From Ulota crispa (Eukaryota > Streptophyta > Bryopsida > Orthotrichales > Orthotrichaceae): a stretch of DNA of 64,000 nucleotides. Shown here one piece after another: positions 8,857 through 57,700 of the stretch (position 1 is the stretch's first letter; every line of letters starts with the position of its first letter). The DNA lies in contig OY987246.1 in assembly GCA_963920765.1 (NCBI GenBank), positions 23,073,167 through 23,137,166 on the forward strand. The letters are read 5' to 3'. The position numbers were made by a program, and so were the translations under genes. The notes below the pieces were generated by a model. It had not been told where the DNA came from. It saw only the letters and a program-made list of their open reading frames with translations, and searched no databases.

Positions 8857-9093
8857 TTAACCCCTGAGCGCCCAGCTCATGTTTGAGCATAGGGGCCAAA
8901 TGGGGGGTTTAATGGGCACCAAAGTTTGTAAAATATCATCCAACAAAATGTGACCGTACGGATGGAAATAACACTACCTTCTTGCTGATGGGGACTAGCC
9001 ACATATAGGTTTGCCTTACTTATAAATAATATATATGCAATCTATTTTTGATCCTAGCAACAGCATCCCGTCGCTAAGGCGCCCAAGGGTTAA
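8857..9093. mobile_element. TTAA-bounded element (family B), copy 1
   Basis: Bounded by TTAA on both sides: left end TTAACCCCTGAGCGCCCAGC; right end read outward-in TTAACCCTTGGGCGCC. The TTAA duplication plus CCC termini follow the piggyBac pattern. No transposase frame is present. Confidence 0.65.
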
Positions 9094-9237
9094 GAGTTGC
9101 ACAAAAACTAAGCCCTAGGCCAAGTGCAATTAAACCCATGCGAGCTTGTTTTTCACTCTTTCCAAAACCACGGGCCAAGTGCTCCCACTTTGGTTTCAAA
9201 CACTCACTTCAAAGTTTTGCATCCATCAAATTTGACT

Positions 9238-9570: not shown

Positions 9571-9704
9571 CATCAAATTATCTTTCAATGTTTTGCGTAG
9601 TCCAAACTTTAAAAAAAGGTCCAAAAAGTCTAGAATTGCATGAATAGTTTAGATTTGTATAAACACAACACAACCATTGTAAAAAACTATTCTAACATTC
9701 TTTA

Positions 9705-10850: not shown

Positions 10851-11276
10851 TTAACCCGTAAACGCCAAGGAGGACAATTTTTGTTTTGATTTCAAAAAAT
10901 TTATCATGTATGACAGGATAAACCCGTTTTTTGATCATTTGATTTTTTGTCTTTCAAAAGTGATCATAAATAGATGGTTCATTGCAGAAGGCAAAAAAAC
11001 AACCTCACCAAATGCATTCATATTTTTTGGTAACTCAAATTGTGAGAAAATTCAAAGTCACTGTGCTAGGTCTCACGCTGCCCTTATTGCAATTTTCATG
11101 AGGTCAACATGTGCTAGGTCTCACGCTGCCCTTATTGCAATTTTCATGAGGTCAACATGCACTGTTGATTTTTGTAACTTTTAAAAACAATACTACAAGG
11201 TAGGCACATATCAAAACATTGTAGAAACTACATGGCAAGGTAGGCCGCAGTTACCTGCCCAACGATTAAGGGTTAA
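10851..11276. mobile_element. TTAA-bounded element (family B), copy 2
   Basis: Left TTAACCCGTAAACGCC; right, read inward, TTAACCCTTAATCGTT. The interior (AAGTGATCATAAATAGATGG, ATGCATTCATATTTTTTGGT) matches the reverse complement of the element at 25466-25835. A 48-bp internal tandem duplication (GTGCTAGGTCTCACGCTGCC) lies at about 11061-11158. Confidence 0.75.
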
Positions 11277-12155: not shown

Positions 12156-12442
12156 AAATAGGGGCATGGTTTCAAAATAATTTATAAATTTTTGTGAATT
12201 TTTTTGGTTTGGAAATTGGTTGATTTTGATACAACACATTAAATGTTAGTTAACTTTCAAAAACTTAAAGGCTTCTCCAAATCAAGCCTAAAAAAGAAAT
12301 TTTAACAAAGGGAATGGAAACTTTTGGAGAGAATTCTATTATTTTTGGAAATTAGCTCATATTTAAGGTGATGTATCTAAATCAATCAATGTCCAAACCA
12401 AAAAAAATTACAAAAAATTACAAATTATTTTGAAATTGTACC

Positions 12443-13359
12443 TTCCCTGAGTGTCCTCTCAGGGGACAAATGAGATTTTGGGCAGGTACCTAGAGCCTCA
12501 ATTTTTGTCATGATTTTTTGAGACATTTTTTGAAGATAGGAAAACACATTTGCTTTTGGGAAATATCATTTTTATTCCAATCTCTGCCCAGGAGCAAAAG
12601 TTATGCTCATATAAGCACAAATTTATGGAGATTGGGCAGCAAAAAAATATTTACAAAAACTTGAATTTTTTTTTGAATTTTTTTTTCTCATAGGTTATAG
12701 TTTTTTCTACATTTGAAGCTTTGATTCTTTCCATTTGGACTAGTTATGACAAAGTTATGGACAATCTTGTTTTTGGGGCAATTCAAGCATCTTCTTGAAA
12801 AAATAACTTATAAACTTCATTTTTGAATGTAATTTTAACATTTTTTCAAAAAACAATTTTGGAGAGGGTGAATTTTTCTTTCTAGAACAATCTCACCATT
12901 GGGATTATTGTGTTTCAATTTCATTGTAGGGTTATTAACAATCTAAGTTTTTGTTCAATTTCATACCTTCTTCCACCTAATGTTTTTTTTAAGAATGAAA
13001 ATTAAGTATTTTTTGTTTTGGTTTTTTTTGGAAGATTCTCAACTCAATTTTCCACCATAAAAAAATAAACCTCAGAAATCTATGGTGCAAAAATTTTAAA
13101 TTAGAAAAGTTCAAAGTCAAAGAATCTAGTCATGCAAGGTGCAAAAAATTTGTTTTTTACACTTTGAACGCAAATATCTTGCAATCTGGGTGGTCAAAGT
13201 TATTGAATCTTTTTTTTCACATTCTTGTACTAGTCTAGTACAAGATCCTATGACTAGATATGAAAAAAGACCAATTTTCAAACTTTTTCTTTTTGCAATA
13301 GAAATGACAATTTTGAGTGTCTTTTGACAAAATAAAGGCCCCAGGGATTTAGGGGTTAA
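12443..13359. mobile_element. TTAA-bounded element (family B), copy 3, left end degraded
   Basis: The right end, read inward, is TTAACCCCTAAATCCC. The proposed left end CTTCCCTGAGTGTCC has lost the TTAA. About 917 bp, AT-rich, no transposase. Boundaries on the left are uncertain. Confidence 0.45.
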
Positions 13360-23680: not shown

Positions 23681-23759
23681 CAAACCCCTGAATGCCCACG
23701 ATGCCAAGTCTCAGTGTTGAAAACACCACATTTTGGTGTCATAGGCATTTAGGGGTTAA
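23681..23759. mobile_element. TTAA-ended hairpin (family B), 79 bp
   Basis: AACCCCTGAATGCCCACGAT and the right end, read inward TTAACCCCTAAATGCC, fold into a near-complete hairpin. The left TTAA is CAAA. Probably a deletion derivative of a family B element. Confidence 0.55.
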
Positions 23760-23936: not shown

Positions 23937-24888
23937 TTAACCCCTACAGGACCAAGGGTGTTTTTTGAGAAAAAATCTCAAAAATTGTTAGCTTTTAGTG
24001 CATTGCCCAAAATTGAAAATATAAACCTTTTTTTTCTCAATTTCAACCGTACAAAAGTGTGTCAAGAAAATAAGTTAATATGTACCAAAAAATTCAGTCC
24101 ATTCAATGCGTGGATTGTAAAATTGAAATGTTTGAAGTGAGAAAAACAGCTATTTTTCATTCCTGCAAAACAAGGTCAGCACACTTTGAGCTTTCCTAGA
24201 GTAAGTTTTTTGCTCTACACAAATTTGAGCTTTTTGACTATTCACAAGTATATGATGTTAGGTTCACTCATGAAAAATTCTAGATGCAAATGTAGAATCT
24301 AGCTTATTCTAAATCACCATGCAATGCAAGGAGGTTTAGTGAATTGGTAATACATTAGTCATTCTTTCATCATTTCTTGTGCAATGAGGAAGTGCTTTAT
24401 TTGAAATTTGAATAGTGAAAAGTTAGAGACAAACATTTGGAATTTGTGAAAATAAGTTTCAAGAGATTTGAATTTATAAATTGAAAGATAATAAGGCTTG
24501 AAGTTAGAGGAGTTTTTTTTTCTTGAAACTACCCAAACATAGTTAACAAAGTTTGACTCCCTTCAAAATGTGATGTGAGAGCTTAATTTTTTTTTTTTTG
24601 ACAATTGTACATTATGTTTTTTTAGTTACATAATTGCCAAATTTCAAAAGTTGATGAGAGTTTTAGCATAAGATTCTCCAAAGATGCCCAAGCTGCCCAA
24701 ATTCTTTTGGGTAACATAACTTTTGAACCAAGCATCCAATTGGAGAAAAAATTACATCTCCACTTATTGGATAAATATTTGCACCTTGTGTAACAATTTT
24801 GAGAACATCCAATAAAATTTGACTTCATATGACCCTACCCAAGTTCTCAAGTGGCTATTGAATAGCCACTTGGTCCTTCAGGGGTTAA
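23937..24888. mobile_element. TTAA-bounded element (family B), copy 5
   Basis: Left TTAACCCCTACAGGACCAAG; right, read inward, TTAACCCCTGAAGGACCAAG. The 20-bp ends agree at 18 positions. About 950 bp, AT-rich, no supported coding region. The same end motif recurs at 56920. Confidence 0.75.
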
Positions 24889-25465: not shown

Positions 25466-25835
25466 TTAACCCTTAAATGCTAGGCTGATCATTGTGACCA
25501 GCCCAGCTATAGTGATTATACATTGTTTGTCCAATGCCCAGTTATTATAATAATGTTTCTCAAAGTTGCAAAAGTCAATAGTGCATGGTGCCCTCACAAA
25601 AATTGCAAAATTACAACTTGGGACCTAACACCGAGTTTCTAAATCTTATCACAATTTGGGTTACCTAAAAATATGAATGCATTTAATGAGGTAATTTTTT
25701 GCCTTCCACAATGAACCATGTGTTTATGATCACTTATGAAAAAAAATCAAATAAAAAACCAAAATAAATCATTTTACATAGCTTTTTTTCAGACGCCGCG
25801 GATGCAAAACTTCCGCGTTGGCGTTTAAGGGTTAA
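25466..25835. mobile_element. TTAA-bounded element (family B), copy 6
   Basis: Left TTAACCCTTAAATGC; right, read inward, TTAACCCTTAAACGCC. The interior is the reverse complement of the element at 10851-11276 with moderate divergence, so the two are copies of one element. Confidence 0.8.
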
Positions 25836-29244: not shown

Positions 29245-32200
29245 ATGGCGCGGGCAGTGGAGGTGGTGCCGGCGGCGGCAATGGGGGAGCATGGAGGGGA
29301 TCCGGACGTGATGCAATGGAGCGCCGCGGGCGCGGGAGCGAGCGGATCGAGGAGGCTGTCGCAGAGCGGGAGTCGGCGGCTGTCGTACTCGCAGAGCGTG
29401 GGCAACAGCATCCGGAGCCTGAGCGCCAATGTGGGCGGGACGTGGGGGCTGATTGGCATGGTGGACAACCCGCTGGAGCGCGCGTCGAACCACGCGCACA
29501 ACGACGGCGCCATGGACGACGAGGAGGCGCTCAAATGGGCCGCCGTGGAGCGCCTGCCCACGTACGACCGCGTGCGCACCAGCGTGTTCCACAAAGCGTC
29601 GGGGGGCGTGAAGCAGGTGGACGTGCGCGAGCTGTCCCCCTTGGAAACCAGCGAGCTCCTCGACAAGCTCATGCTGGAAACGCAGGATGAGAACAACATG
29701 CTCCTCCTCAAAATGCGCAAGCGCCTCGACAGGTCCGCCATCTCCCATGCCCCATGCTTCACGTCTACTCTCCCTCTACCATTCAAACAAACTAGGGGGA
29801 AATTTCATGAAAGAATATCCCCTGAAATTTGCAATATTCTCATAGATAGATACCCCTGCTTTTTCAGAAAATTTCACAAATACCCTTGGACCATGATTTT
29901 CATAGATACTCCTGAAGTTTGCAATACTTGCATAGATATCCCTGAAGTTTGCAATATTTTCATAGATTCCCCTGCTTCTTTTTCGGAAATTTCACACAAA
30001 TACCGTTGGACCAAAATTTTCATGGAGACCCGTGAAGTTTGCTATATTTTCATAGATACCCCTGCTTTTACAAATATATCACAAATACCCTTGGACCAAA
30101 ATTCTTAGGGGCATTTGTTTGTTTGTTGTGCATGCCACTTTCCTTCTTCCTTTGTGAGCACGCTGCTTCTTTTTAGTTTCATTACATTTCCTTCTTCAAC
30201 GTTGGTCATGAAGAAAGTATGAGCACAACAAATAAATGCCTAAATTTTTTGGTCCATGGGTATTTATAAAATTTCTGAAAAAGCAGGCTAGGGGTGTCTG
30301 CAAATATTGCAAACTTCAGGGGTATCCATGAAATTTTCCCTAGTTTGAATTACTTCCACTCTGATCAGAGTAAACTCGACTAATCAGATTGGTCGACATA
30401 TTTCAGCCTTGTCGCTGACTTGGAAATGCTGTGTGTTGTAGAGTTGGAATTGAGCTGCCTAAAATCGAAGTGCGATATGAAAACCTTTCAGTAGAGGCGG
30501 ATTGCTACGTGGGAAACCGAGCTTTGCCATCCCTGCCAAACGTCTCCCGGAACTTTGTCGAGGTACGAGCATCACTATTCTTTTAAGGGAAAATTTTATG
30601 GAGCACCTTGAAGTTTACCATATTTGTGTAGATACCCCTGGTTTTTCAGAAATTGCCCAAATATCATAATTTCAGGCATTTGTTTTGTTATGCACGCTAC
30701 TTCCTTTATGACCAATGTTTGAGCAAGGAGTACAACAGAACGGCAAGGGAGAAAGAAGTGGCATGCACAACATAATAAACGCTTAAAAATTATTATCCAA
30801 GTGTATTTGTGCAATTTCTGAAAAACCAGGGGTACCAATACAAATATGGGTAAACTTCAGGGGTGTCCATAAAATTCCCCTTCTTTTAAACTACGAAGGC
30901 ATAACAGGAAACTCGTCTTTCAACTTTTCTGCGAGGACGTTGAGATTCCTGACCATGCTTGTTGCTTTTCAGACTGTTTTGGACAAGTTTCATCTGTCGC
31001 TTACCAAGAAGGCGAAGCTGTCCATTCTGGAGAATGTCAGTGGTGTAGTCAAGCCCAGCAGGTTAGTTTCTCCAGTTGCTCTTTTAGCATTCTAGTTCAA
31101 ACGAGCACTTGAAATTCTTTCTTAGTACCGTCGTTAACACCACTTTTAATGCAAACATACCTTGATTTGGGCTTCGAATTCATACACCACAAGGCCACAG
31201 TCTGTTGAAGTAACGCTTGGAAGCAGATTCCGTGAGATTCAGTGAGGTTCAGTGAGATTCAGTTCTTGGGGGTTTGAAAACATAGTCCACATTAAAGGCT
31301 TCCTAAACTTTAGAATGATATGGTTAAATATTCTTGAAGTACTAGGTTTGTGAGGTTTTTTGAGGTTTTACAAGGTTAGCTAGGGTTTTTTTTTTATAAG
31401 ACGGGGCTTTTGCACACAGGATGACGTTGTTGTTAGGTCCACCGGCCTCTGGAAAGACGACGCTGCTCTTGGCGCTGGCAGGAAGGCTAGAGAAGAGCTT
31501 ACGTGTCAAAGGCAAGGTGACGCTCAACGGACACACTCACAAGGAGTTTGTGCCGCAACGCACCGGTGCTTACATCAGCCAACGTGACCTCCACGTCGGC
31601 GAGATGACTGTCCGAGAAACCCTGGACTTTTCTGCCAAATGCCAAGGCAGTGGCACCCGCTATGGTGAGTTGCAATAAATCTACATTTCTGCGTATTTTT
31701 GCATGTTTTTGCATGTTTTTGCTTGTGTTTGAAACACAGCTGAAAAAACCGACTAGTTAAAACCATAGCTCTATTAAGATGTTGAACTTTGACTTAGTAT
31801 CTGCTCGTGAAGATGTGGATTTGTTACGACATTGTTAAGAAATTCCTGGCAAGATATGCTCTAAAGGTAGTCTCCTTGTTTGTGTGAACTTTTCTATAAC
31901 CTTGTTTTTTTCTCAACTCAGAGCTTCTGGAGGAGATAACTCGGAGGGAAAAGGAAGCTGGAATCTACCCTGACGCGGATGTAGATGCGTTCATGAAGGT
32001 GGATTTTTTTTCTGCAGTTTTCTTTTGCTTGTTTACTGTGTTTTTCCTACTGTATGTTGATCTGGGCATGGTTAGAAAAACTTACAATATGCTTAGTTTA
32101 TAGTTTACCTGGCTTAAGAGCTGAGTGTGTGTGTGTGTTTTCACACAGATGGCGATACTTTCAGGAAACCAGCAGAGCGTTGGGACGGATTACACGTTAA

Positions 32201-38200: not shown

Positions 38201-41200
38201 TCCGCTTGGCTCCGCCTCTCCCCCGACATCTCCGACCAAGACAAGCTGGTACGCACCCGTCGTTTTCTACGTCCCAAAAGTTTCTTGACTTTTTGGGTTC
38301 TTTTGTATTCTCTGATAATCTACTTCCATACCTCGTTTCCTACGTCCCAAATTCTGGACTTTTTTTGAATTCCTTTGCATTCTCAGATAGTCTACTTCCA
38401 AACCTCGTTTTCTACTTCCCATATTCTTGGTTTTTTGAAAATCTTTGCATTTTTCTTTTGTCTCTGATACTTCCAAACCTCGTTTTCTACGTCCCAAATT
38501 CTTGACTTTTTGAATTTCTTTTGCATTCTCTGATAGTCTACTTCCAAACCTCGTAAGCTACGTCCCAAATTCTTGACTTTTGAATTCTTTACATCTCTTT
38601 TTGTCTCTGACACTTCCAAACCTCGTTTTCTACGTCCAAATCCTAGTTTTTTGAGTTCTTTTTTTGGTTGGTGCGGTTGGGTGATGTTGGTGGTGGTGGT
38701 GATGATGTGGTTGTGTGCAGCAATTCGTAGACCAAGTGATGGACTTGGTGGAGTTGAACCCCATCGAGCATGCGCTGGTGGGGCTGCCGGGCATCACGGG
38801 GCTGTCCACGGAGCAGAGGAAGCGCCTCACCATCGCCGTGGAGTTGGTGGCCAATCCGTCCATCATTTTCATGGACGAGCCCACCAGTGGGCTCGACGCT
38901 CGCGCTGCTGCCATCGTGATGCGCACCGTGCGCAACACGGTGGACACCGGCAGGACTGTTGTGTGCACCATCCATCAACCTAGCATTGACATTTTCGAAG
39001 CTTTCGATGAGGTTTGTGCTTCTGCTTTCTTGCCTTTCGGACGTCCCTATTTTCCTCTCTTTTTTGCCGTAAAAAACCTGATTTTCATGCTTATTTCCAT
39101 ACGTAGATAGTAGTGAAACGTTTGGTGCAAAACACGAATACTTTTTATACCGAGCCAGGCACAATTAAGATGGAGTAACTTGGGCTTCCGCTTCTTGCCT
39201 TTCAAATGTCCCCATTTTCTTCTTTTTGCCTTTTTTGCTTTTAAAATGTGATTTTTATGCTTAGTATCATACTTAGATAGCAGTGAAACTTTCGTTGCAA
39301 AGACGAATAAATTTTATTCCGAGCCAGGCACAATTGAGATGGAGTGAATTGGGCTTCCGCTTCTTGCCCTTCAAAACGTCCCCATTTTCTTTTATTTTGC
39401 TTTCAAAAACCTGGTTTTTATGCTTAGTAACCATACTCAGACAGTAGTGACACTTCGGTGCAAAAACGAATACTTTTTATACCGAGCCAGGCACAATTGA
39501 GATGGAGTGATTTGGGCTTCTGCTTCTTGCCTTTCAAACGTCTCCATTTTCTTCTTTTTGCCTTTTTTGCTTTAAAACGTGTTATTAATGCTTGATATCA
39601 TGCTTAGATAGCAGTGAAAGATTTGGTGCAAAAACTGATTTCATTTATACCGAGCTAGGTGCAATTGCGATGGAGTGATTTGATGAAGATACTGACTAGA
39701 TAAGGCCTGTGTGTGTTGCTGTACAGTTGTTGCTTCTGAAGCGTGGAGGACGTGTGATTTACAATGGACCACTAGGACACAATTCTGATAAGCTCATTGA
39801 TTACTTCCAGGTATGGCTTTCATACGCTAAAATTGAGCTTCAATTGTTGATATGGGTGGGAAGTAAAGGTTGGATGATTCGAACTTAGTAGTGATTGGCT
39901 GTGATTTTTTTTTTTTTTTTTTTTTTTTCTAAATGGCTTTTCTGGTGTTGGTGTAGGCTTTACCCGGTGTTGCAAAAATTAAGGATGGGTACAACCCAGC
40001 CACATGGATGTTAGAAGTCACCAACACGACTGTTGAGAACCGACTTGGAGTCGACTTTGCTGATCTCTATTTGAGATCCAACCTTTACCTGTACAATCCA
40101 ATTTCCCCCCTAAAGCTTTCCCACACACATGCAATGGTTGGTGTAGTTGTTTGTTTAGACGCCATAAATGATCAAATCTGAGTTTCAAAGGCCACTGTAA
40201 TATGTCTTCTTGTAAGTTGGTCACAGAGAGGTTTGAAAACATAAAATATTTTTATGTTTGAGGTTCACCAGGGTGGTGGTTACTTGGCCGTATGTTCAAT
40301 AACCTTCTCCAGCCTCCCAGCTCTTGAAGGTTGCGAAGTCCATGATTCATGTCTGCTTTTGTATTGCTTCTGTTTGTTTTTCTATTTCCTAGGATTGGAA
40401 GTTGGTCATTCTTGATAGCTGATCTATTGGGGTGACGTGGCAGGCAAAACAAGCAACTTGTAGAACAGCTAAAAACACCACAACCAGGCTCCGAAGATTT
40501 GTACTTCCCCACACAATTTTCCCAAAACTCCTACAACCAGCTCAAGACTATTCTATGGAAGCAGTTCATCACGTATTGGCGGAGCCCTGATTACAACCTC
40601 GTCCGCTTCATCTTCACCTTTCTCATTTCCTTGATCTTTGGCAGCCTCTTCTGGCAAAAAGGAACCAACAGGTAAAAAGACCCTAAACCCTAAGCCCTGA
40701 TCCCCAAACCCTAAGAACCCAATTTCAACAACCTCCCTCCAAAACAAAGCTTGTTTCTCTACTGCCACGTCACTAAACCACTCTCATACAAAACCCTTTC
40801 CCATAAACCTCAGGAGTAAGACTTTTTGCATACAAGAAGAGCATGAATTTGTGAATGATTAAACTTTGTATAACATTTCGTTTGTGCGTTTTTTTGTTTT
40901 TGTTGGCAGGGATAATAATAAGGACTTGGTGACGATATTGGGTGCGCTGTACGGGTCCACTATTTTCTTATGCTTCAACAACTGTGGTGTTGTGCAACCC
41001 GTGATTAGCATTGAGCGCACCGTGTTCTACCGAGAGAAAGCCGCTGGGATGTACTCGGCCATTCCTTACGCTTTTGCACAGGCAAGGCCTAAACCCTTTG
41101 CGTTTTTTTGGGAAAATTTGATGGATACCTTTGAAGGTTTTGCGATGTTTTTATAGATACCCCTGTTTTTTCAGAAATTGCACAAATACCCTTGGACCAT

Positions 41201-42886
41201 AAGTTTCAAGCATTTTTTTTGTTATGCATGTCACTTCCCTTTTTCCTTTGTGCACACATTGCTACTTTTTTGTTCCATTGCACTCCCTTCTTCAATATTG
41301 GTCATGAAGGAAGTGGCTAGCACGACAAAGAAAGACCTAAACATTATGGTCCAAGGGTATTTATGCAGTTTCTGAAAAATCAGGGGGTACCTATACAAAT
41401 ATTGCAAACTTCAGGGGCATCCATCAAATTTTCCCTGTTTTTCTTTTTGTGTGTTTTGGTGAGGGGAGTTGTTGTTAAGGCCAATGCATGTTTTCCCTGT
41501 TTTTTTTTTGTGTGTGTTTTGGTGGGGGGAGTTGTTGTTGAGGCTAATGCATGTTTATTTGGTTTTTAATTTTTGGGTTGGTGGGGGATGGGGAGAGCAG
41601 CTTCTGGTGGAGATTCCTTACGTGTTGGCGCAAGTGACGCTGTACGCAACCATCAGCTACGCTATGATTGGGTTTGAGTGGACGGCGGCCAAGTTCTTCT
41701 GGTATTTCTACGTGCTCTACTTCGGAGTGATCATGTTCACATATTACGGCATGATGATGGTGGCGCTCACGCCCAACGCCACTCTGGCCACCATTTGCGC
41801 CTCCTTCTTCTACGCCCTCTTCAACCTCTTCTCCGGCTTCCTCATCGCCAAGCCGGTAAATACTTACATACATCCATACATATCCTCTCACCTTCATTTT
41901 CTCAAAGCAAAAAAAGGAAGAATATACATAAAACCAACCTAAACCATGTTATGCTCTAATAAAAAACCACCACTCTTAATCCACCGTTGTATTCACTTAA
42001 ATCTGAAAGAAAGCTTGCTTTTACAAGGAATTCCCAAAACATTACCAAACATGGTATTACTTCGAGTATATCTGAAACTATTAGTGACTGCATTTGAAGA
42101 AACCGAAAGCCACTAAAAGCTTAAGAAATGCCTACATGGCACCACTTTTGAAAGCATTGGCGCCGAGAAACTGGGACCTTGGGGCCTTTTACCCAGCTCC
42201 AAAAAACTAAGTCCCACCATCTTTTTGAGTGCTTTTTGTTAGTATTTCTTTTTGCCCCTTTACAACTCAACAACAAAAGTTAGTATCTTGCTCTTTTCAT
42301 GGCACTTCCAAAGTAGCTCAAGCGGCTCAAAAACACTGCTAAAACGTGCTAAAATTTGCCGAGATTTGCTAAAGTTTGAAATATAAGATAGTGTGTTCAC
42401 ATTTTTTTGCATTTTCTTGGGTGAACATTTAGCTGACTGCAGCGACAGTTGTGAAAACTGACTGCTACCTAGCTAAGTGTGTGTTTTTTTTTGGAGTTCT
42501 TGTTCTTGTTTTTGTTTTTGTTTTTGTTTTTGTTTTTGTTTTGTTTTGGTTTTGGTTTTGGTTTTGTGTGTGAGGTACGTGGCGTCTCACGGTGCGGTTA
42601 TGGGGTGTGGCAGTTGATTCCACCGTGGTGGATATGGTACTACTGGATCTGCCCGGTGTCGTGGATCATCAACGGCCTGGTGAACTCGCAACTGGGTGAC
42701 GTCACGACCAAAGTGATGATCCAGGGCAGCATGGAACCGATTCCGGTGAAGGACTACATCCACAACACCTTCGGATTTGAGAGGAGCTTCCTCAAGTGGA
42801 CTGCTCTGGGCCTCGCTGGCTGGGCCGTCTTCTTTGCCCTCATTTTTGTGCTCGGCATCAAGTTCCTCAACTTCCAACGCCGTTGA
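29245..42886 (+). CDS. Full-size ABC transporter, ABCG subfamily PDR type (21 exons, 1531 aa)
   Basis: Plasma-membrane ATP-driven exporter of the pleiotropic drug resistance group by family; substrate unknown. Exons: 29245-29732, 30442-30562, 30973-31061, 31420-31664, 31922-31998, 32149-32202, 32554-32644, 33348-33649, 33990-34271, 34917-35314, 35866-36049, 36451-36610, 36996-37330, 37916-38248, 38721-39011, 39727-39810, 39957-40090, 40444-40671, 40910-41081, 41601-41855, 42614-42886. All join in phase with GT-AG ends except one GC-AG intron. Reverse order NBD-TMD-NBD-TMD: Walker [10 protein letters not shown] (239-247), signature ISGGQKKR (378-385), Walker B ending FMDE (403); second Walker [10 protein letters not shown] (974-982), signature LSTEQRKR (1081-1088), Walker B IIFMDEP. 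PDR hallmarks include [17 protein letters not shown] and [10 protein letters not shown]. The start ATG has a GCCATGG context and gives the usual PDR N-terminus. The exon 12 acceptor at 36450 was chosen by phase and is the least certain. The linker carries a Ser/Arg-rich stretch (about 863-909). Confidence 0.95.
29796..30340. mobile_element. Family A MULE-like MITE in ABCG intron 1 (composite)
   Basis: Ends GGGGAAATTTCATGA and CATGAAATTTTCCC match the other family A copies, but this one is 545 bp because the left subterminal block (CCTGAAGTTTGCAATA ... CCTTGGACCA) is repeated about three times. It fills most of the 709-bp intron. No clear duplication at its flanks. Confidence 0.75.
30587..30880. 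mobile_element. Family A MULE-like MITE in ABCG intron 2, exact 9-bp duplication
   Basis: GGGAAAATTTTATGGAGCAC to TCCATAAAATTCCCC, flanked by TTCTTTTAA at 30578-30586 and 30881-30889, an exact 9-bp target duplication. It makes up about 70% of the 410-bp intron. Confidence 0.9.
32930..33248. mobile_element. Family A MULE-like MITE in ABCG intron 7
   Basis: GGGAAAATTTCATGGATACC to ATCCATAAAATTTTCC. Flanks AAGTAATCA / AAGTATTTG match at 6 of 9 positions. The interior shares GTGCATGCCA and TTGGTCACGAAGG with other copies. Confidence 0.8.
33667..33987 (+). repeat. Two adjacent copies of the intron repeat, ending at an acceptor
   Basis: Copies at 33667-33825 and 33841-33987 match 4459-4614 in the nuclease-kinase gene. 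Each ends in GGGATCACCCCAG or GGGATCACCTCAG. The second of these is the exon 9 splice acceptor, so the 3' splice site of the ABCG intron coincides with the edge of the repeat. Confidence 0.8.
34440..34686. mobile_element. Family A MULE-like MITE in ABCG intron 9
   Basis: GGGAAAATTTTATGGATACC to ATCCATGAAATTTCCCC, 247 bp. Flanks TAGGTTTTT / TCGATTTTT match at 7 of 9. The interior is shortened relative to other copies. Confidence 0.8.
35425..35760 (+). repeat. Minisatellite in ABCG intron 10
   Basis: Four to five irregular copies of a unit of about 55-60 bp containing CCTGTGAGTTGTTAAACATT and GATTTTTCCCTCTGTCACAT, with a nested triplication of CACATTTTCCCCCCTGTGT near 35630-35680. Confidence 0.85.
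36303..36423 (+). repeat. 16-17-bp tandem repeat in ABCG intron 11
   Basis: About seven copies of a unit close to ACTTCTGATAACCAAAG ending 28 bases before the chosen exon 12 acceptor. It leaves that acceptor with a poor pyrimidine tract. Confidence 0.85.
37506..37799. mobile_element. MITE family E copy in ABCG intron 13
   Basis: CTAAGGTAGGAGGTTC to GAGCCTCCCTACCTTAG. The interior (GAGGAGGTGC, CTTGTCTTTCAAGG) is the reverse complement of the 9238-9570 interior. Confidence 0.75.
38263..38650 (+). repeat. About 75-bp tandem repeat in ABCG intron 14
   Basis: Five to six copies of a unit carrying ACTTCCAAACCTCGTTTTCT and ACGTCCCAAATTCTTGACTT fill nearly the whole intron between the NBD2 Walker A exon and the signature exon. 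Confidence 0.9.
39012..39690 (+). repeat. About 150-bp tandem repeat in ABCG intron 15
   Basis: Four copies of a unit with GGGCTTCCGCTTCTTGCC, ACCGAGCCAGGCACAATTGA and GATGGAGTGA. They occupy 39012-39690 of the 715-bp intron. Confidence 0.9.
41082..41600 (+). other. GC-AG intron (ABCG intron 19)
   Basis: The exon 19 sequence ends ...TTTGCACAG and continues GCAAGGCC. Splicing here in phase 0 to the acceptor at 41600 gives ...[16 protein letters not shown], the conserved PDR sequence. No nearby GT donor gives a family-like join. CAG|GCAAG is the usual GC-donor context. Confidence 0.85.
41110..41435. mobile_element. Family A MULE-like MITE in ABCG intron 19
   Basis: GGGAAAATTTGATGGATACC to ATCCATCAAATTTTCCC, 326 bp, beginning 28 bases after the GC donor. 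Flanks CGTTTTTTT / TGTTTTTCT match at 7 of 9. Confidence 0.85.
42496..42566 (+). repeat. (TTTTTG)n / (TTTTGG)n microsatellite in ABCG intron 20
   Basis: Runs of GTTTTT pass into GGTTTT shortly before the last exon. Confidence 0.9.
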
Positions 42887-44722: not shown

Positions 44723-44966
44723 TAACTGATAGTTGAGGTACATATAAGTGACGTGGTGGAGATACAAATATTTTGGAGATAGTTCATAATCGTATGACGA
44801 AAAAATTTGCTTATACGTATATTTTAGGATTAGGGTATATTTCTGCTTTGATCTGAATTAAATAAGACTTTCAGTATCTTCGAAGTGGCACTGGATGAAT
44901 GCAACCATGTTATCAAATAAATTGGAGACAGAAGTTTTCGTCATAGCTACTGGTTTGTAAACTTCG

Positions 44967-45356
44967 TTAACCCTTTAAAGACTGGTCGACCAGTTCCTGG
45001 TCGACTTTGACTCTTTCCAGTTTGTAGAGAGAGCATGTCAAGGAATTTGATGACGTGGCAAAGGGAACAGATTTGGGAAGAGTTTAGGATAATAATCATG
45101 CCAATCTAAGGTGGCATGTGGTTAAAGGATTGAAAAAACTAAAAAAATACTGGCTGAAAATACACCAATAAATGCAAAAAGATGGTCATAACAACCAAAG
45201 AATTCATGATGTATAACACTAAATGTTGCAAGATACTTCCATTTGTACTGTCAGATCTATGATAGACATCTATATGCAATAACCCTAAAATGCCCCCCAA
45301 ATGGAAATACAAATGATTGCCCACCCTAGAATCGACCACGGTCGTTAAAGGGTTAA
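44967..45356. mobile_element. TTAA-bounded element (family B), copy 7
   Basis: Left TTAACCCTTTAAAGACTGG; right, read inward, TTAACCCTTTAACGACCG. A subterminal palindromic repeat GGTCGACCAG/GGTCGAC lies just inside the left end. Among the most piggyBac-like of the set. Confidence 0.8.
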
Positions 45357-45763: not shown

Positions 45764-48700
45764 TTAGAGTATTAAAAATGGGTGTGCGTGACGTGGAGAT
45801 GCTGATGATACTTGAGGCTGATGGTAAAAAGGGCGAGTGCGCATCATGAACCAAAAACTCACCGTGGCACTTGCAATACAAAGCAAGGCAAGCATGAGCA
45901 GCGATGAGCTAAAGCACATGCTGCCCATGCAAGCATTCTTCGCACCCAAGTCCCAAGAATGGCTTCTGTAAAATGCAGCTTGATTTCCATACAACATGCC
46001 CACCAAATTGGTTGAGAGCAAGTAGGCTCCAATAGGGGCAGCAGTCCTGAAGCGTCACCATCACAAACATTACAAATTAGCAAAAAAAAACTTTTGTAGC
46101 ATTTGATATAGGGACATCGCTATTTTTTGAGGGTCAAACGGAGAGTTGTGAGCGGCAATTCAAGATTTTGTGAGTTGGAACCAATTATTAGCTCAATATT
46201 ATTGGAAAAACTAAAAAAGTGTAAGTTCTACAAAAGATGATAGTTTAAAATGCATAATTATAGGACTCTATGAACATAGTTTTAGGTGAAATTTAATATT
46301 TTGACAAAAAATCCTTGGTCATGGCTCAAGGTTCACAAATCTTTGCTCACAAAATAGCATTCCCCTTTGAAATAGTTGACAAAAACAAGGACACGATTTT
46401 GAACTCATAAGTGAGACCTTTGGAGTTTCATGTGACAAAAGTGACTTTGTTTTTTTTCCTAACTTAATACTATAATGACTTAACAATTCTTTGTAGTGGA
46501 GAAAGGTGCAAGGTGCACAAATCCCAATTGCTTTTGCATATTACATGAAATTTTTGTGTTGTTGAGGAGAATTACCACATTACTTGTGACTTTTTGTGAG
46601 TGATTGAAACATCTCTAACTTAAAAATTCTAAAACTTCTTTAAATGTTGCAATTACATGCATTTGAACTAATTTATGAAAATCGTGCTTTTGAAATATTA
46701 AACAACTATTCATAACAACCTTCTAAAGCTTTTTTTCTGTTACCGCTGACAATAGATTGTCAGTTAGTTCGGTATTGTGAGAGATGTGGGCAACAACAAC
46801 AAAATTCATTTTCCTACTAATTTAAACAATATTTCCAAAATGGAAGAAAGGAAGTTACCGTGTTTCATTCATTCCTAGATGGCTTCGTACTTTGAATTCT
46901 TCCATTCTTAAGGACTTTTACAATTTTTTCTCTTTTTTAGGATGCTGTCAACATAAAGAGGTTATGGTTTTCTTTGACTGTTCTAATTCCTTCGCATTCA
47001 AAAAAATATGAGTTCCGATGATCCACTTTTATTATTATTCTTATTATTATTGTTATTATTATTTTATTTTACAAATGAAATTCAGCTGGGGAGAGGGTGA
47101 GGAATTTTTTCAACTCACGAGCTAATTTTATACAAAGTTGGAAATTGTTGGTGACCAAACACTTCAGCCAAAATAGGAGGTTGGAGGCTCCAATGAGAGC
47201 CATAGGCCATGCCCACCATACAGGACCCTACATAAAGAAAGGGCACCCCTGCACATCCAACAAACAATATGGTAAAGCAGCCTCAATATATCAGGATAAG
47301 TAATTTAAAGTTTCAAAAAATGTATATTTTCAAAGGGAATTGATATGCACACCACACCTTCTTGACTATCTCACCACACCCCGGGTAAATTTTAGATTTC
47401 TACCATCAAAAAGCTGAATTTGAGAATTTGGAATTCAGATTTGGACTTAAAGACCTGGATTTTGTCTAGAACCATAAAAAAATGTTGTAATTGAACAACA
47501 CCCAATGAAAAAGCTTAGCTCAGGGGAAAAGTATAACTTTTACTTTTTTTTATAAAAAAGATAAGCTTTTTTACTGGGTGTTGTTCAATTAAAACTTTTT
47601 TTGTGATTCTAGACAAAATCACAGTCTTTGAGTCCAAATCTGAATTCCAAATTCTCAAATTCAGATTTTGATAGTAGAAATCCAAAATTTACCCCAGGGT
47701 GTGGTGGGATAGTCAAGAAGGTGTGATACACTTATCAATTCCCATTTTCAAAAACAAGTTGACTCCAACGCCTTAAAATTTTCCCAAAAGATCTTCTTTT
47801 TCTTTCTGACAAAAGTATTTGCTGATATATTTATTTATTGGCTCTAAACCACTGCAAAGGAAGAGATTTTGCAGCAAGAGGAGCTACCTTGAGGAAAATT
47901 GAATAGATATCTACATAAACACCAAGCTAATGTTACAAGAATAGATCATTCTCTCAAAGCCTAGCTGCTTGTTTTTTTTTTCTGAAACTATACTATGTAA
48001 TTACTAAAATATTCTTTCTGTGTTTATCTAAAATGATATGGAAGAAAAGACAATTGATAAAAAACATTGACAATTGAAAGCAAAAAACTCCTTATTTCAC
48101 ATAGGATATGCTCCAAGAACTTTATACAAGTCCCGTGACCTCATGGTAATAAGCAGCGACATTTATTTCTTTCAAAGTTGAAATGAATTGTAAAAAAAAA
48201 GTAGCAAAACATATCAATAAAAAAGAGTACCCCATGTACTATCACTTCATCTATGCTCGATTTCCAAAAAACCAATATCATATTCTTATGAAAATTATTG
48301 GACTCCTTGAATTTGGTAGGTTTCACACTACGTACAAGCTACAAGTGGATCCTCTAGTAAACGAAAGGGATCTAGTGAAACCCAAAGCTTAGATTGAGAT
48401 ATCCTAGATTTTATTTTATAAACACCAATGTTTGCGAGCAAAAGAATACTCTATTTGCAACAGTAAAAAAAGATATGTTTTGTGGAAGCTGTTTATAATT
48501 AGCTCTTGGCAAGGTGGAGTTTGAAATCTTTATAAGGGGGTTTTGGATTGAAGAGGTGAAAATCGAATTTAAACTCACAGCCTGTAGCAAGGAGAAGGCA
48601 GCAAGAGCTCATCAGGATTTGCGCCATAAGCAATCCAAATGGCCTGGGGTATCCCTTCTTTAAGAGAAAATCTGATCCATACCTGCACCCCCAAATAAAA

Positions 48701-51700
48701 CAATAAGCATTTATTTATAAATGAGAACATTGTCATAATCGTGTGTAAAAATTTAGGACACAAATATTTAAATATCTAAGCTCCAGGCTTTGCTAATAGT
48801 CATTTAGCTATTTGAAGATACTTATAGCCTTTAGTGTAAATCCTCCCAAAAACCAAGTGGTCCTAAAATTCTTAACAAAATATGACATTGGTATTCACAA
48901 ATCAATTACACATGAAAAGATAACCCAAAGATATTTTTAACTAAACCTCACAAAATAGTAAAGTGTCTCCCCTTAAGGGGGGTAGGCATTGACATCTTAT
49001 TAGGAGAATCCCCAATAGGGCTCTATTTTGGTGATACAACCCTACATCTATGGCCATTCATATTCCTCTATATTGGAGGGGCTATCACATGCTAGTCCTC
49101 AACAAAATAAATTAAAAAGCTAGTTGTAGTAAATTATATGAAATCATACTCATAACATTAAATTTAAAGAAATAAAAAGATTGGAACAAATGAAATAAAG
49201 GGTTGTCTTGTACCCTCCCAATAAGCAACCAAAGCAACTCCAAACGCTTATGAGACCCTTAAACGCTTTCACTTGATGATCTCCTAACAATTGTCCAATC
49301 TGTTCAAAAAGGAGAAAAGAAAAAAGAGGTTTCTTTTATATCAATGGTCCAAAATGTTTGTCAAAATAACACAAGGCTTCACCTAGGTAAACCTTTTGGA
49401 GTCCTAGAAAAATTTATTGATAAGATAATGAAATGTGTCCACCACAAGTCACAACATATCACATGCAATACTTTGTCTACCATAAGCCCATTAGCAAAAA
49501 AACTGGTAAATAAATACAAAGAAAAGGATGCAAGAAAATTATTTCTGATGAGTCCATAGCAAATGAGAGTGTGCCACGTATACTCTTAAGAAAATATGAG
49601 ATTGTAAAAATGTAGTGACCTGGGCAAAGTTGTTGATGACAGCCAATCCAGTGCCTCCACCGATCATCAATACTGCCATTACCAACCTGTAGTATCCATG
49701 CCAAACAATTTATAAAAAGTTCTATAAATTTATAAAAGTCAACTTCAATAGCATATACAACTGCCTCAATATAAAGAAAAAAATGACAAGCCAACAAGGT
49801 AAAAAAAAAGTCATGTAATAGGCATGTTTATCACACAAAATGAGGTTTACATTTACAATGATTTTCAGCAACCAAAAATAATAATTTATTCGGAGGGATA
49901 ATTTCTAGTGTATATTTTGGTCGCATAATGTGTCTCTAGTCAACTTTTTCTGAACCATTTTGTCCCATTTTTATAAACATTGATTATATGGTAGTTTGTT
50001 GCTTCAAATAACTATCTTTGTGTGGATATGAGTTGGGTTTAATTAATAGGAAGTCAAGCAAATGCAATCCAACCATGAACACAAATCAAACTTTGTTCAC
50101 AAAAAAACTAAAACTACACACCCCCAATATGCGGCTTTGGCCTTCAATATATGCTAAAACAAGAAAAGATGCATAATAAAAGAAAAAAAATCTGCTTGTC
50201 AATAGAGATGTGTATGATAAACCACTCCCAGGCATCCAACTATGCACAAAGGTGCAAGCCCAATTCTCTTGTGCTTAATACTAGTAAAACCACAAGGTAG
50301 AACCACTTCTTCTACATGCAAAATCAAGAGTGTTTCACCATCACTTCACTTGGTGCTCAAGGATTGGTTTACTGGCATCAATTACTGGGTTCATATGACA
50401 TTCCACCAATCATAAGCATAACATGTTAAGCTCTAATAAAGGGCAATTCGCATTATGTCCAATGTCCCATTTCTAAAAGTCCCACCTCAACTCTAGAACT
50501 AAGTTCAACACCAAATCCTGACTTTACTGATTTATCAAGAGCAAAAAGAAGTACTAACAAATCATAAACAAATGTTTGTGCAAAAATATTGGTGGGACTT
50601 GAAGTTGACTGATGTATGGCTGAGCAAAGATGGTCACCCCGAATAGTGAGTGAAATTCCAACTTGGCGTCAAAACTTCCAAAGCATTATCACATAGGCAA
50701 ACAAAAATACAGTGAACTCAAACATGGGACACGGAACACAATGCGAATTCCCAAGTCTCAACCTTGCTTCTTTCTCAGATTCTCAGATAAGTTTCAGTGA
50801 GACGTTCACGTAGTGTGAACCACTCTAATAAACTATCGTTCAAAAACATATAGTACTTTACAATTCCACATCACCACAAAGGGTACCAAATTCATGTATC
50901 TATCCTTTCTCCAAACTTTGCTAACACAATTGCTACAGCCACAAGAAGAGTTATGTACATATCACAAATTTCAACACAATATATTATTATTCTCTCGACA
51001 ACTTTTGGTTTCTCTATAACAATGTCAAAGCATTTTAAAGAGAATAATTGCACATCCAAGAACACTCTAACATCTTCCTCACCAAGTGACAAAGATACTC
51101 ATGGATTCCAATCTACAAATGCCCTTGTAAATTTTTACCCTCAAACATATTAATCCCTCAAGGCCCAAGGGGCTCAAATAGCGCCCCTATGCATTATATT
51201 TTGAGATGGTTTGATTTTTTTTCAAAATTAATTTTAATAATTATTAATTTGAGTTATTTTTATTGACGTCTAGTTTAAGTATCAAAATCCGATTTTGAAA
51301 ATGAATGATTATGATTTGTCTATTCAAGATTTTGTGCAAGGATGTCTATTGTAAATCTTCACTTTATAGTGTTGAGAGCTCTTGGGAATGAGCCTCAAGT
51401 ACACTAGAACTTGGAGAAACAATCACACTAGAAATTTAATTCAAGAAGTTGTAGAATAGGTTTTGAGAGACCTTAAATTGATTAGGGTTATGCATGTTGT
51501 CCTTTACATGCTCATATTTGTTTGGTGTCCTCAATTTCAAATTTGAGATGTGAAAAGAGGATTGAAAGACTTTAAATCACTTTCACAGTTTTAACAACTT
51601 CATGATCAAATCTTATAATATTTTAATTTATAAGTGATATTGTTGTGTTTTCTTTTCCCATGTAATCTCTAACATGTCTAGCTTGAATTTGTACGGTTAC

Positions 51701-54700
51701 GTTCCAAAAAAAAGTGATAAAATTTATTAAAATGTTGGCATTTTGTTCATTCTAGAGCAGATTCTAAGATATTCAAAAAAGTTCAGGGGCGTTGAGGGGT
51801 TAACAACAAAATGGGTGGTCAAGCATAAAGTTTGCAAAGGCATTGTACAAACTCAGTTTCAAGAACCTGAGGATCTATTGGAGGCCATTGTACATAACCA
51901 AATAACAAGATACTCATAAATTCCAATTTATCAAAGTATCTAAGATGCTTTTTATGATCTTAACCCCTGAGCACTTCGGTGCAATGTTGGACCTTTTTGC
52001 AAACAAATTGGCACCACAAGTTCAAAAGCAACATCTAGAAGAGTGAATAGTTGATATTGCACAAGGCTTAGGGTCCGCATATGTATGAAAAATTTAGTAA
52101 GTTTTTGTTGCATGGATCAAAAGATTATAACGGTTAAAGACAACAAACTGTCAAATATGGAGAGGCCACATTCTGGCCTATGGGGGCACTCAGGGGTTAA
52201 AGCAAAGTTATGACATTACACAAGATTTGGCTATTGAATGTAATTGACAGACACACAAAACAGACACATGTCTATCTACTCTTGCGTTTTAGGGTTTTTA
52301 AAAAAAAATTAACCTAAAAAAGGAAGAATTAAATTCCTATTTATCATTTTTACCAAGTGATATGGTTTTAAATCCACGTTTTAACCTCATTTTGGCAATA
52401 ATGAGAGTCATTAGCATGTACAAAGTGAGCTTTTTGTTTTTAATCATTTCTTGCAGTCAACTATAAGTTTGACAAAATCCCACAGACATGAGTTCAATCG
52501 GGCACTTCTGGGCAGATGGACGGGCAGGCCAATGTAACAACCACGTCTTGAAGTGATTACAACCTCATTCAAATCAGAACACAGACCCCTTTTGCAACTA
52601 CAAGAGAGCCCCTTTGTAGATAAGGCAGAGCAAGCGTGGTACCAGAAATCCAGGCGCAGCAAGGGGGGCGTCAAGCAGGACTGCTGCAGCAACAGCTTCT
52701 CTCCGCCGTTGTTGTTGCTGAAGACCAGCAACTCATGCTCGTCGCCGTCGATGCTGACGTGAGGGGAGGAGGGGATGGTCACCGTCTTTAAGGCGGCGAG
52801 CTCGTGGTCCTCGTGGATGTCCGGGAGTTGCGGTCGGAAGGGCTTCTTCCTGTACAGCGACTCTCGCCTCGCCAAGTCCCGCCCCAGCACACTCGTCGCG
52901 TCCTCCGCTGCGTCGCTCTCCTCCATGTACGCCGCGAAGAAGTCCACCGGTCTCCGAATCAGCTAATTAAGATGATGCACCAGCACAACCCCCATGCAAC
53001 TCTTGTAAATCCCGTGCTCACAAACTCAACCAAAACCATAGCTCACGGAAGATCTTTGCTCCAAAGATTAAATCCATGTTTTTTTGAAAAGTGTTATCTT
53101 AGAGGATGTGCATAACGTTGTAATGTCTGCTAATCATTCCATAATCTTGTAGAGTGTAGATTTGCCATCATAGGGATGTCTTAGTGGACAAAATGCTTTG
53201 TCCCATGTTTTGTCAACCTTCATTTGGTGAGAAATTGTCATGTCATCATTGATTTTGTCTTTTTGGTGGAAGGGTTTCAAATTAGGAATTGAACGTTTGG
53301 TGGAGTTACAATTTTGTTTCCACTTTAATGATTGTCTTTTATCTCACATGAAGTGGGAGGGAGTGTTTTGTCCAATGGGCAAGATTTGAGGTCACCTTGG
53401 GAGGTGATCCCAAATCTTGTTCACTACAAGTGAATTCCTCTCCACTTTTGGATAGAGTGAGTAATGACATGGCTTTAACACCTAATGGCCATTTGCTTCA
53501 CTATGAAAGCTCCATTAGACAACCCCTCTCACTAGCCAACAAAACATTCCTAAATCTTGCTCACTTCCCAATTTGAATTGGCCCATGTAACGTGACTATG
53601 CCTTCATACTCTAACTTGTTAGATGTGGCAAAAAGCTTGAGTTTCCATGGTTGATGATTTTGGTGAGTCCAATATTCAAAGTGAAACAACTATTGCAAAG
53701 AACTATTGAACAATTTATCATATTTGTGGTCTCTATGAATTCCATGGCTATGATCCTTGATTCAAGGGGTACACTCAAGTTTGAAGAGTTTAGTTCTAAA
53801 GTTGTGCATGACACTAGAATTAGTTTGCTAATCATTCCACAATCTTGTATGGATTAAATTTGCCTTCATAATCTTGAATTAGCTAAATGCCATAATACGC
53901 CTAAGTTTCCATGGTTGATGATTTCCAAAAAAATCCAGCACTGCAATAACGGATTAGGTATAGGTAATGTGAAAGCAGAGTATAGTTCACATATTGAGCC
54001 ACAAGAGTGGTGAGGATGAAGTTGTTATTTTTCTTTGTCACTGGGTTTCACTATACATTCATGTTACTTGACATATCCTCAATGGTTGGATCTTGTTCAA
54101 TCATTCAATGCTTAGGGACAAAGAACACAATGATGTTCAAACAAGCCCATGTTATATGGAAAGCAACATGCCTCTGTTGCCATTCTATACAAAAATGAGT
54201 TCCATTGAAATTATGGTTGTTTTGGTAATATGACAAGTTTGAAAGTGCCAGTACTATGACACTCAAATGACTCAACTACATATAGCTATAACAATCAAAA
54301 TCAAACCAAAATTCAAATCGATTTAAGGTTCTACATGTGCATCTGAAAAATCACCAATTTGTTCACATGTGGTTGCTATTTTTAACAAACATGACAATTT
54401 CGATTTGCATACAAAATCGGAATCGAGAATTTCATCAGTGCAGACATGGAAAAACTTATTAAAAAAAACAAAACAAAAAAAACCACAAATGAATGGCTGT
54501 GGAATAGGAGAGAATTACGTACAGGAATTATGAATATAGCTGAAGCAAACGTAAGCATGATGGTCAAGTAGAACTTCAGTATATCTCTTCCAGGATGTAA
54601 AAAAGCCTGCCAGTTCAGTCCTTTCATTTAGAAAAATGAAAAAAGATGAATTACTCGGCCACCAAAGCTTTGAATTCCATGTGCATGTGACCCCAAAAAA

Positions 54701-57700
54701 AAAATAGGGAAAAAAAAAAAAAAAAAAAAAAACCTTGCTAGTATAAAATTCTGAACCTTACAATAATCTGTATGACACGAGGACGGTCCTTGACTTGGGA
54801 CCAAATCTTAAAATGTCTTCTTGATGAATATTGAAAAACAAAACCTTAAAAAAAGTGTCTAACTTGCCAAAAAAATCTTTGCATATAAAAAACCAATAAC
54901 CACAATTAATTAAGTGAAAAGAGGGTTTGAAAAAGCAAAAGAGTAGTACTTTGATGATGATAACCACCATGAGAAAGATCCCAAGACAAATCAGTAACCC
55001 CTGCAATCACGAAATAATCCACAAAGTGACTAAAGTAATTTCGAAATCACGAAAGTAATTTCGAAGTCATGAACTTAATTTAAACGACAGAACTTCCAAA
55101 AGAAACTTGCAAGTCCAAGAGGAATTCTATACCCTGTATTATTTCAGAATTTCAAAGCATTCATAATATTATCTCTAATTTCAGTGGAAATTCCTTTTCC
55201 TCGCCCAAAAAAAATCCTCCTAACAAAGTGCAAAGGTGGGTTAAATTAAAATCCTTTCTTAAAAACTGGCAAGGGAGGAGTATTCTACTCTGTAAGTAAA
55301 GCATCAACAAGATCCAAGAGAGGACAAACATTCATTGCATTATTTCATCAATACCAATGGGTCCCTTTTGCTTTACTAAACCATCAAGCTTCAATCCCTT
55401 CTTAAAATGTAAGGGAAGGATAACCCAACATTCTCTAGTGAGGTCTGACAAAAGATCCAAGAGAGGGCAAGCATCCATAGTCCCACTCACTAAACAAAAT
55501 TATTGAGGAAAGGAACATTCCATTGTTGGACGTGATGGCACACAAAAGAGTTTAAAACTTTAAACGAGTAACTTTCTCTAAAGAGAAACTATATAATAGT
55601 TAAGCTTTTATACACTTACATAAGTCAAATGAAATCTTTGCTTGACATCTTCACCATCATCATCTTGGTACTCTGGAGGAAAAGGTCTTGTAAAGTATGC
55701 CAACACAAAGGCAGCCACTGAGGGCACCAGCGCCACCAACAGGACAAACTGGTTCTCATCCGCCTCCATAAAGGCCTCATAAACCTGAGACATGGCCAAT
55801 AAATAAGTAGCAAAAAAACACAATGTTATAAACCCAAAACATGATATTTAGCGTATCATTCCAAAGAAAAAGCAATCGTTTTGGCCTCATCTTGAGATAA
55901 AGCATGAACTTTTTAAACTTTTTAAACTTTTAAAGCTTCAAGGACCACTATTTTATAGGGAGAATTTTATGGATCGGATACCCCTGAAGTTTGCAATATT
56001 TACATAGATATCCCTGCTTTTTCAGAAATTGCACAAATACCCCTTGGACCATAATTTTCAAGCATTTATTTGTTATGCTTGTACTTCCTTCATGATCAAT
56101 GTTGAAGAAGGGAATGTAATGAAACAAAAAAGAAGCAACGTGCACACAAAGAAAGAAGGGAAGTGACATGCACAACAAAATAAACACCTGAAAATTTTGG
56201 TGCAAGGGTATTTGTGAAATTTCTGAAAAAACAAGGATATCTCTTATAATATTGCAAACTTCAGAGGTATCCATGAAATTTTCCCATTTTTATACCGTGA
56301 TGCATATACTTTGATAACCCATATATGCCGTGGATAGTTTAACTCTAAAAGATGTGCATGACATAAAAATATTTATGGAGCACCTTGGCTCTATATAATC
56401 TAGACTTGTTGGTTAAATATGCCATAAAAGTGAAAAAGAGAGACTAACCAAGACAAATATGGCGCCACTCAGTCCCACTTGTGCTTTGAGAATGCCCATT
56501 GCTGTTCCCCGGTAATCTCCAAAGCTTTCTAAACTGCACAAGCATTACATTTCAATTAGTAAACTTCAAAAAAGTACCATAGTATTGTACCAAATTGCGC
56601 CTAAAATAATCAGGTTTGCATTTAAAAGCAAAACCAAATGGTATCATCACTTGGTGGAAGACTTATGAAAACGATAATGTAGAAAGATATTTGAAGTTGT
56701 AATTTTTTTTTTGATAGAGATGGTTTTCTTATATTTTCATCTACCAACATAGGGCAAATATTACTCTTATTGCAGTGCTAAACCAAACCTAGTTAGCAAG
56801 AAAATATGTTTATCAGAAGAAAACACTAATGCTGCACTTGATTAATTTTGGACTATGGAGGCCATTTTAGACTGTACACAACCATTGTGATGTCACACAC
56901 ATCTATAACATTTGGTTCTTTAACCCCTAAAGGACCAAGTAGCCCTTTGCAACCAATAAAATACGGGGTATTTTTCTTGTATTTGGACTGCATCCACACC
57001 TTTATTATATTTGAGATCAACAAAGAAGTTAGAATATAGATTAATACTATTCTAGGGAGGTAGTCAAGATCCCAAATTAAACTTTTTGTTGGTAGCAAAT
57101 GCCAATTATACATCAGCGTACATATTATGTATTATAGTAGCTCGATCTTTTAAGGGTTAACATGTATTGGCCCCTATCAAGGGATCACTCCATACAATTT
57201 GAAGGGCTACGAATAAGCAAACTTTCCAGATTCTTGTCACCTTATAGTAAGATTTGTTTTTCTCAAGCTTCTGGTTGTTTAGAGACTACTTAGTTACAAC
57301 GTCTTGATGAAGGGCGTCATGTTAAAATAAATTAAGAGTGTAAATAACATGTCTTTTTTTTAAATTGTATCTTCAAAACCCTTCAAAAAAGTGAGAATTT
57401 AAAAAAGAACCTAGGTATGGGATATATCTTTCCCAAAGACAATAAAAACAAAGTAGATTTTAGAGAGATAATTTTGGTTTTGCTTTTAGGTTTTCTTAGA
57501 CATATATTAATACACAGTCATGCATTTTGCGCAAGCTAAATGTATGTGGTTATTGTTGGGGGCACTTCTATACCTAGGAGGTGCCCTTTACCCTTGCAAC
57601 CTACCTCAAAGTTCTAGAAAAAGGGCACAAGAAAAAAATTCTCTTGTTTATATGGAAGGGAGCTTACGTTGTGGTAATGCAACCGGTATCGATGAAGCTG

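Follow-up and report, generated by a model that had tools for sequence, protein, structure and literature searches.

Probable piggyBac-superfamily miniature transposons in the genome of the moss Ulota crispa

The window analysed here is a stretch of 64,000 nucleotides from the moss Ulota crispa (contig OY987246.1, here C5:23073167-23137166), and ten short intervals within it, each bounded by inverted ends, are very probably non-autonomous transposons of the piggyBac superfamily, that is, miniature inverted-repeat transposable elements (MITEs) belonging to several families. The evidence consists of the ends themselves, their TTAA target, transposase genes carried by elements with ends of this type, and empty sites at paralogous places. 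A preliminary description of the window had named the same ten candidates and assigned them to piggyBac by inference, and it had proposed a genome search with the ends, an examination of empty sites and a hunt for a full-length copy with a piggyBac-type transposase.

Borders, copy number and families

Inverted TTAA-CCC[CT]T-type ends could be read in all ten of the intervals previously proposed (Table 1), and TTAA is present on both borders of eight, the same number as counted before. The other two deviate at the left border, which is a decayed TTCCCTGAGTGTCC in 12443-13359 and CAAACCCC (CAAA) in 23681-23759. No stop-to-stop reading frame of at least 150 amino acids overlaps any of the ten, in agreement with the earlier statement that none encodes a transposase. 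Together they occupy 4,507 bp, or 7.0%, of the window. The window contains 17 copies of the motif TTAACCC[CT]T, whereas 30 dinucleotide shuffles gave 1.5 on average and never more than 6. Adjacent convergent pairs of ends spaced 60-1500 bp apart number six; 200 shuffles averaged 0.015 such pairs and yielded at most 1. Loci were also fetched from other parts of the genome (designated L below), and eight of the ten have matches among them at E<=1e-6; these loci are a small part of the genome, and no match was found in them for 8857-9093 or 51960-52200. The 79-bp interval 23681-23759 looks like a decayed copy belonging to a uniform family described below.

Table 1. Elements of the window (positions within the window) and transposase-bearing elements elsewhere in the genome
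Feature	Location	Strand	Length	Ends and borders	Relatives
Element	8857..9093	.	237 bp	TTAACCCCTGAGCGCC / TTAACCCTTGGGCGCC; TTAA both borders	None in fetched loci
Element	10851..11276	.	426 bp	TTAACCCGTAAACGCC / TTAACCCTTAATCG; TTAA both borders	Kin of ~390-bp family A; 75-83% identity, piecewise, to L066, L068, L075, L080
Candidate, weakest of ten	12443..13359	.	917 bp	Left TTCCCTGAGTGTCC, decayed; right TTAACCCCTAAATCCC	Matches to other loci over 84-92 bp only
Hairpin element	23681..23759	.	79 bp	Left CAAA, right TTAA	83% over 77 bp to L039:2023-2099
Element	23937..24888	.	952 bp	TTAACCCCTACAGGACC / TTAACCCCTGAAGGACC	~950-bp family; 85-87% identity over own length to copies in L002, L004, L044; empty site C5:7244857-7245006
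Element	25466..25835	.	370 bp	TTAA both borders	Distant kin of family A
Element, family B	44967..45356	.	390 bp		75-81% identity to five members of ~410-bp family B; both family ends align with transposase-bearing L042 element
Element	51150..51803	.	654 bp	TTAATCCCTCAAGGCCC / TTAACCCCTCAACGCCC; TTAA both borders	74% over 553 bp to L008
Element	51960..52200	.	241 bp	TTAACCCCTGAGCAC / TTAACCCCTGAGTGCCC; TTAA both borders	None in fetched loci
Element	56920..57160	.	241 bp	TTAACCCCTAAAGGACC / TTAACCCTTAAAAGATC; TTAA both borders	82% over 242 bp to L007:2171-2412
Transposase-bearing element	C3:13130262-13135288		5,027 bp	TTAACCC both sides	
Transposase-bearing element	C2:15046195-15051296		5,102 bp	TTAACCC both sides	
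Transposase-bearing element (L043)	C1:1176510-1184004		7,495 bp	TTAACCC ends; 19-nt arms 89% complementary	
Transposase-bearing element (L042)	C4:3588220-3594834			Left TTAACTCT, split by nested element	

Across the 274.8-Mb assembly (157 contigs), the strict end motif TTAACCCYTNAANGNCC has 24,790 matches, divided almost equally between the strands (12,388 and 12,402), and its reversed control has 2 (1 + 1). A looser form, TTAACCCYTNNANNNCC, gives 29,048 matches against 221 for its control, and the end without its TTAA, CCCYTNAANGNCC, gives 29,982 against 402. TTAA precedes 24,790 of the latter matches, or 82.7%, which is high if copies generally differ by 12-15% as in the families sampled. 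The strict matches are about 12,400 elements' worth of ends, and this is a floor because the strict form describes just 4 of the 20 window borders and TTAACCCYT describes 16; a total of several tens of thousands is plausible. Pairing of strict ends recovers 68 elements of 389-419 bp genome-wide and none with the control. Within four sampled families, mean pairwise identity is 87.9% (8 copies), 84.9% (6), 87.0% (4) and 86.6% (3); most of these copies were picked from the list of 68 and have intact borders by choice.

The family to which the 79-bp interval belongs is represented by 43 places in which both 17-bp ends are exact (lengths of 74-89 bp allowed; control 0), and 40 of these are exactly 79 bp long. 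Folding of the window member and of the L039 member into a hairpin is stronger than in 200 of 200 shuffles, with z scores of -4.4 and -8.9.

Strict ends also occur back to back around one common TTAA, at 256 places genome-wide (for example C1:571401-571430; control 0). An even distribution of ends among TTAA sites, taken at 372 per 64 kb (744 when counted on both strands), would give approximately 96 such pairs, and the excess is mild and uncorrected for uneven density.

Transposase genes and empty sites

A profile search of the genome with PF13843 (DDE_Tnp_1_7) gave at least 120 matches, all above the cut-off and the best at 254.5 bits, a count that is a floor given that 116 of 528 first-look candidates were scored. 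No match was found in 14 control genomes, in which the plant LEAFY family was likewise without a match, so this says little on eukaryotes. In viral contigs, 6 pattern matches to the transposase alignment (A1) were seen, of which 0 were confirmed as relatives. Larger stretches were fetched around six transposase loci, and in three of these the domain lies between TTAACCC ends on both sides; these three elements, together with L042, are full-length relatives of the kind that the preliminary description had proposed to look for, and they bring DDE_Tnp_1_7 within elements that carry the ends in question. The element on C3 has a second copy on C10, with outer 600-bp segments 90% and 94% identical. 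The ends TTAACCCCTCATCGCC, TTAACCCTTGACCGCC, TTAACCCTTGCACGTCC and TTAACCCTTTAGCGACC of the transposase-bearing elements each depart from the strict motif by at most 1-2 bases.

The domain was confirmed in L042, L043 and L044. With phmmer, L042 matches 6x67, which we take to be the piggyBac transposase of T. ni, at E 4e-20 and 9c0f, an entry named piggyBat, at E 6e-17; L044 matches 9c0f at E 4e-18 and 6x67 at E 7e-16. When L044 is aligned to 9c0f and 6x67, aspartates are kept in the contexts VDE, CDN and GVDxxDQ. Three aspartates in contexts like TVDE, CDNFF and GVDxxDQ, among which we presume the catalytic ones to be found, are present in 7 of 30 loci (L009, L011, L013, L018, L023, L025 and L037), an undercount because the scan used one frame only and the loci have broken frames. 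In 16 of the 30 loci, a broad Cys/His pattern follows 177-222 nt (59-74 codons) past the domain, and 15 of these are alike in whole or in part; the hit in L024 is unlike the others and was set aside. Anywhere within 900 nt, the pattern is found in 21 of 30 loci, and on the opposite strand in 2 of 30. According to one paper, the piggyBac family usually has a cysteine-rich domain in which the cysteines vary (PMC8086355).

Once an inserted element is set aside, both the left and the right end of the L042 element align with the family of 44967-45356. Over 38 bp, the right end and the window element share 84% identity (E 3e-4), and the left end is matched to family B by alignment alone, with no statistic attached. 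This is the most direct tie between an element of the window and a piggyBac transposase. The inserted element (L042:221-1190) is 909 bp long, has like ends, and is nested in a TTAA inside the left terminal repeat (TTAACTCT-TTAA-GG).

Empty sites were sought by joining the flanks of 35 elements at one TTAA and searching the genome with the joined sequences, in sets of 20 and 15. Each search scored 40 candidates; in the first set the query's own sites made up 38 of 55 entries, and in the second a single element accounted for 39 of 40. Five further elements, L073, L074, L078, L084 and L085, were left out of the second set, their flanks having matched such elements. Paralogous places that run across the junction were found for at least 4 of the 35 elements, 57 places in all, of which 37 were read: the single place for 23937-24888 (84% identity), all 16 for the L002 element, the single place for L083 (91%) and 19 of 39 for L075. 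In every one of the 37 alignments, 4 bp stand in register in place of TTAA-element-TTAA, and in five of them (L088, L091, L092, L096 and L100) these 4 bp are an intact TTAA. Taken together with DDE_Tnp_1_7 inside elements with such ends, the empty sites support the piggyBac assignment made in the preliminary description.

On this assignment, longer elements of about 5-7.5 kb elsewhere in the genome would encode a piggyBac transposase that recognizes the TTAA-CCCYTnAAnGnCC ends common to many of the short families, excises the element and reinserts it at a different TTAA, leaving TTAA on both flanks. These transposases would have moved the MITEs of the window in trans, and excision would presumably be seamless, as in other piggyBac elements. 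Within-family identity averaging 85-88% and the broken state of the transposases suggest that most movement is old. More recent movement is possible given a few open stretches and empty sites that are up to 94% identical.

Two further features of the transposase loci deserve mention. At C1:1180709-1181995 (L043:4150-5838), the domain is divided between two open stretches in the same frame, 270 bp apart, and the interval could be an intron. Copies of equal or nearly equal score also occur in opposite orientation at C7:18203169 and 18223004, C2:36765124 and 36779670, and C10:676128 and 785346; these pairs, 14.5-109 kb apart, are inverted duplications or assembly duplicates.

Alternative explanations

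Several observations weigh against the piggyBac assignment. Stop codons interrupt the transposase domain in 110 of 120 matches and are absent from 10, the open copy in L042 has N at the expected third catalytic D, and PF13842, the model of the cysteine-rich domain, gave no match, in a search without matches anywhere. No clear pair of ends was found around the transposase of L044, the left border of the C10 copy of the C3 element reads TTCACCCC, and the left end of the L042 element is TTAACTCT and not TTAACCC. At the empty sites, 32 of 37 carry 4 bp other than TTAA, including TCTA at L049, TTAC at L086, CCAA in 14 of 16 at L002 and CTAA in 7 of 19 at L075, such that most of the sites show the length of the target and not its sequence. 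The simplest reading is that the element landed in a repeat copy whose site was TTAA, and CCAA or CTAA could have become TTAA by C-to-T change. The tie to a transposase by sequence concerns family B, over approximately 40 bp at each end, and for the families with GGACC and ATGCCC ends no transposase-bearing partner was found, none having been searched for. These last points are what would be seen if the abundant families belonged to a different superfamily with a TTAA target, such as Kolobok or Sola3, both of which use TTAA, and if piggyBac were a separate and scarcer resident sharing the target by chance. The left end of L042 slightly lowers our confidence in piggyBac and raises it in this rival, which we nevertheless consider improbable, since the ends of the transposase-bearing elements are of the same make as those of the MITEs.

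A similar question concerns Tourist and Stowaway MITEs of flowering plants, which are short, high-copy, hairpin-prone and directed to AT-rich targets, in all of which the moss elements resemble them. A 3-bp TAA (PIF/Harbinger) or a TA (Tc1/mariner) is contained in TTAA, and because TTAA is palindromic, the empty sites alone do not separate duplication of TTAA from duplication of TA around ACCC...GGGT; at a TTAA target, the 2-bp and 4-bp readings give identical occupied and empty sequences. What decides between them is the link to the transposase. The moss elements differ from Tourist and Stowaway in their full TTAA borders, with the outer T kept at 82.7% of ends, in their other ends, and in their transposase, which in the elements examined is DDE_Tnp_1_7, with no PIF or mariner transposase among them (the genome was not searched for either). 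Tourist or Stowaway identity in a TTAA context is therefore very unlikely, and we rejected it on transposase grounds. Least credible is a chance origin of inverted motifs in AT-rich DNA. The poor border in each of 12443-13359 and 23681-23759 would suit it, but it is contradicted by the shuffle and reversed-pattern controls and was rejected as having practically no probability, given six convergent pairs against a mean of 0.015 and 24,790 motifs against 2 when reversed. We accordingly retain the piggyBac assignment.

Known systems, host lineage and neighbouring sequences

The piggyBac superfamily is best known from animals. With T. ni piggyBac and piggyBat, the moss elements and their transposases have in common TTAA on both sides, CCC ends, DDE_Tnp_1_7, three aspartates and a C-terminal cysteine-rich motif; they differ in their moss host and in the stops found in 110 of the 120 listed transposase copies. 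The superfamily is already known, also from plants in print, and what stands out in the moss is the copy number, the tie to a transposase and the 79-bp hairpin family. We tentatively propose, as somewhat less than an even chance, that in the moss lineage piggyBac holds the niche that Stowaway and Tourist hold in flowering plants. Its non-autonomous elements would number many thousands and fall into many families, one of them the uniform 79-bp hairpin (75 bp without the second TTAA), which would be moved wholly in trans and is, to our knowledge, perhaps one of the shortest substrates of piggyBac type. With its 24,790 strict end motifs, the moss offers a natural piggyBac system for plants and suggests that piggyBac can be the dominant superfamily among the MITEs of a land plant. 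Its sequences also allow the minimal size of a piggyBac substrate to be addressed, and repeat pipelines that lack a piggyBac class may mislabel such moss repeats.

The transposase-bearing copies, at about 5-7.5 kb, are larger than T. ni piggyBac, given as 2,472 bp in an insect paper that also states that piggyBac has been identified in plants (PMC10140906). The earlier remark on the rarity of piggyBac reports from plants is only partly right. In the plant sources consulted, it is a minor item, with 1,230 copies and 0.00% in the fern Ceratopteris (PMC6890710) and figures of 1, 34 and 0.000 in olive (PMC4007544), yet it is listed for these and among seven MITE superfamilies of angiosperms in a review (PMC10004981). 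The angiosperm MITEs and the Ceratopteris annotations resemble the moss set in being plant elements assigned to PiggyBac; 1,230 copies in the Ceratopteris table compare with 24,790 strict ends in the moss, and the assignment in the moss rests on linked transposases and empty sites. One moss genome paper gives terminal inverted repeat elements as 29.13% of the genome, CACTA foremost (PMC11704416). Among the titles and beginnings of abstracts listed for piggyBac with mosses or bryophytes, none describes a piggyBac element of a moss, although such a description may exist in the papers themselves.

Six matches to PF01698 were found in the genome, the best of which is a LEAFY SAM domain at 103.6 bits whose sole PDB match is the Ginkgo-type LFY 4ude. 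The DNA-binding exon downstream of it is identical at 104 of 106 positions to 4bhk (FLORICAULA/LEAFY HOMOLOG 1), which we take to be from the moss Physcomitrium patens, and scores 245 bits with 4bhk as compared with 174 for the next chain. The D and C residues of this exon presumably correspond to sites 312 and 345. According to one study, LFY types are defined by sites 312, 345 and 387, LFY of the moss class Bryopsida is type II, and a gene of type II occurs in one liverwort too (PMC6588583). The P. patens genome, given as 462.3 Mb (PMC9631980), is larger than the 274.8-Mb assembly. On these sequences, a moss is the most likely host.

Elsewhere in the window, 29898-34687 and 41160-41386 contain recurring inverted repeats, each arm 35-86 bp long (CATGGATACCCCTGA...TTTCAGAAATTGCACAAATACC), apparently located between exons of what, judged by eye from the reading frames, is a putative ABC-transporter gene. 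Hairpin-like inverted repeats that possibly represent other MITE families are found at 12170-12435, 47332-47746 and 55976-56272 of the window and at L044:889-1178.

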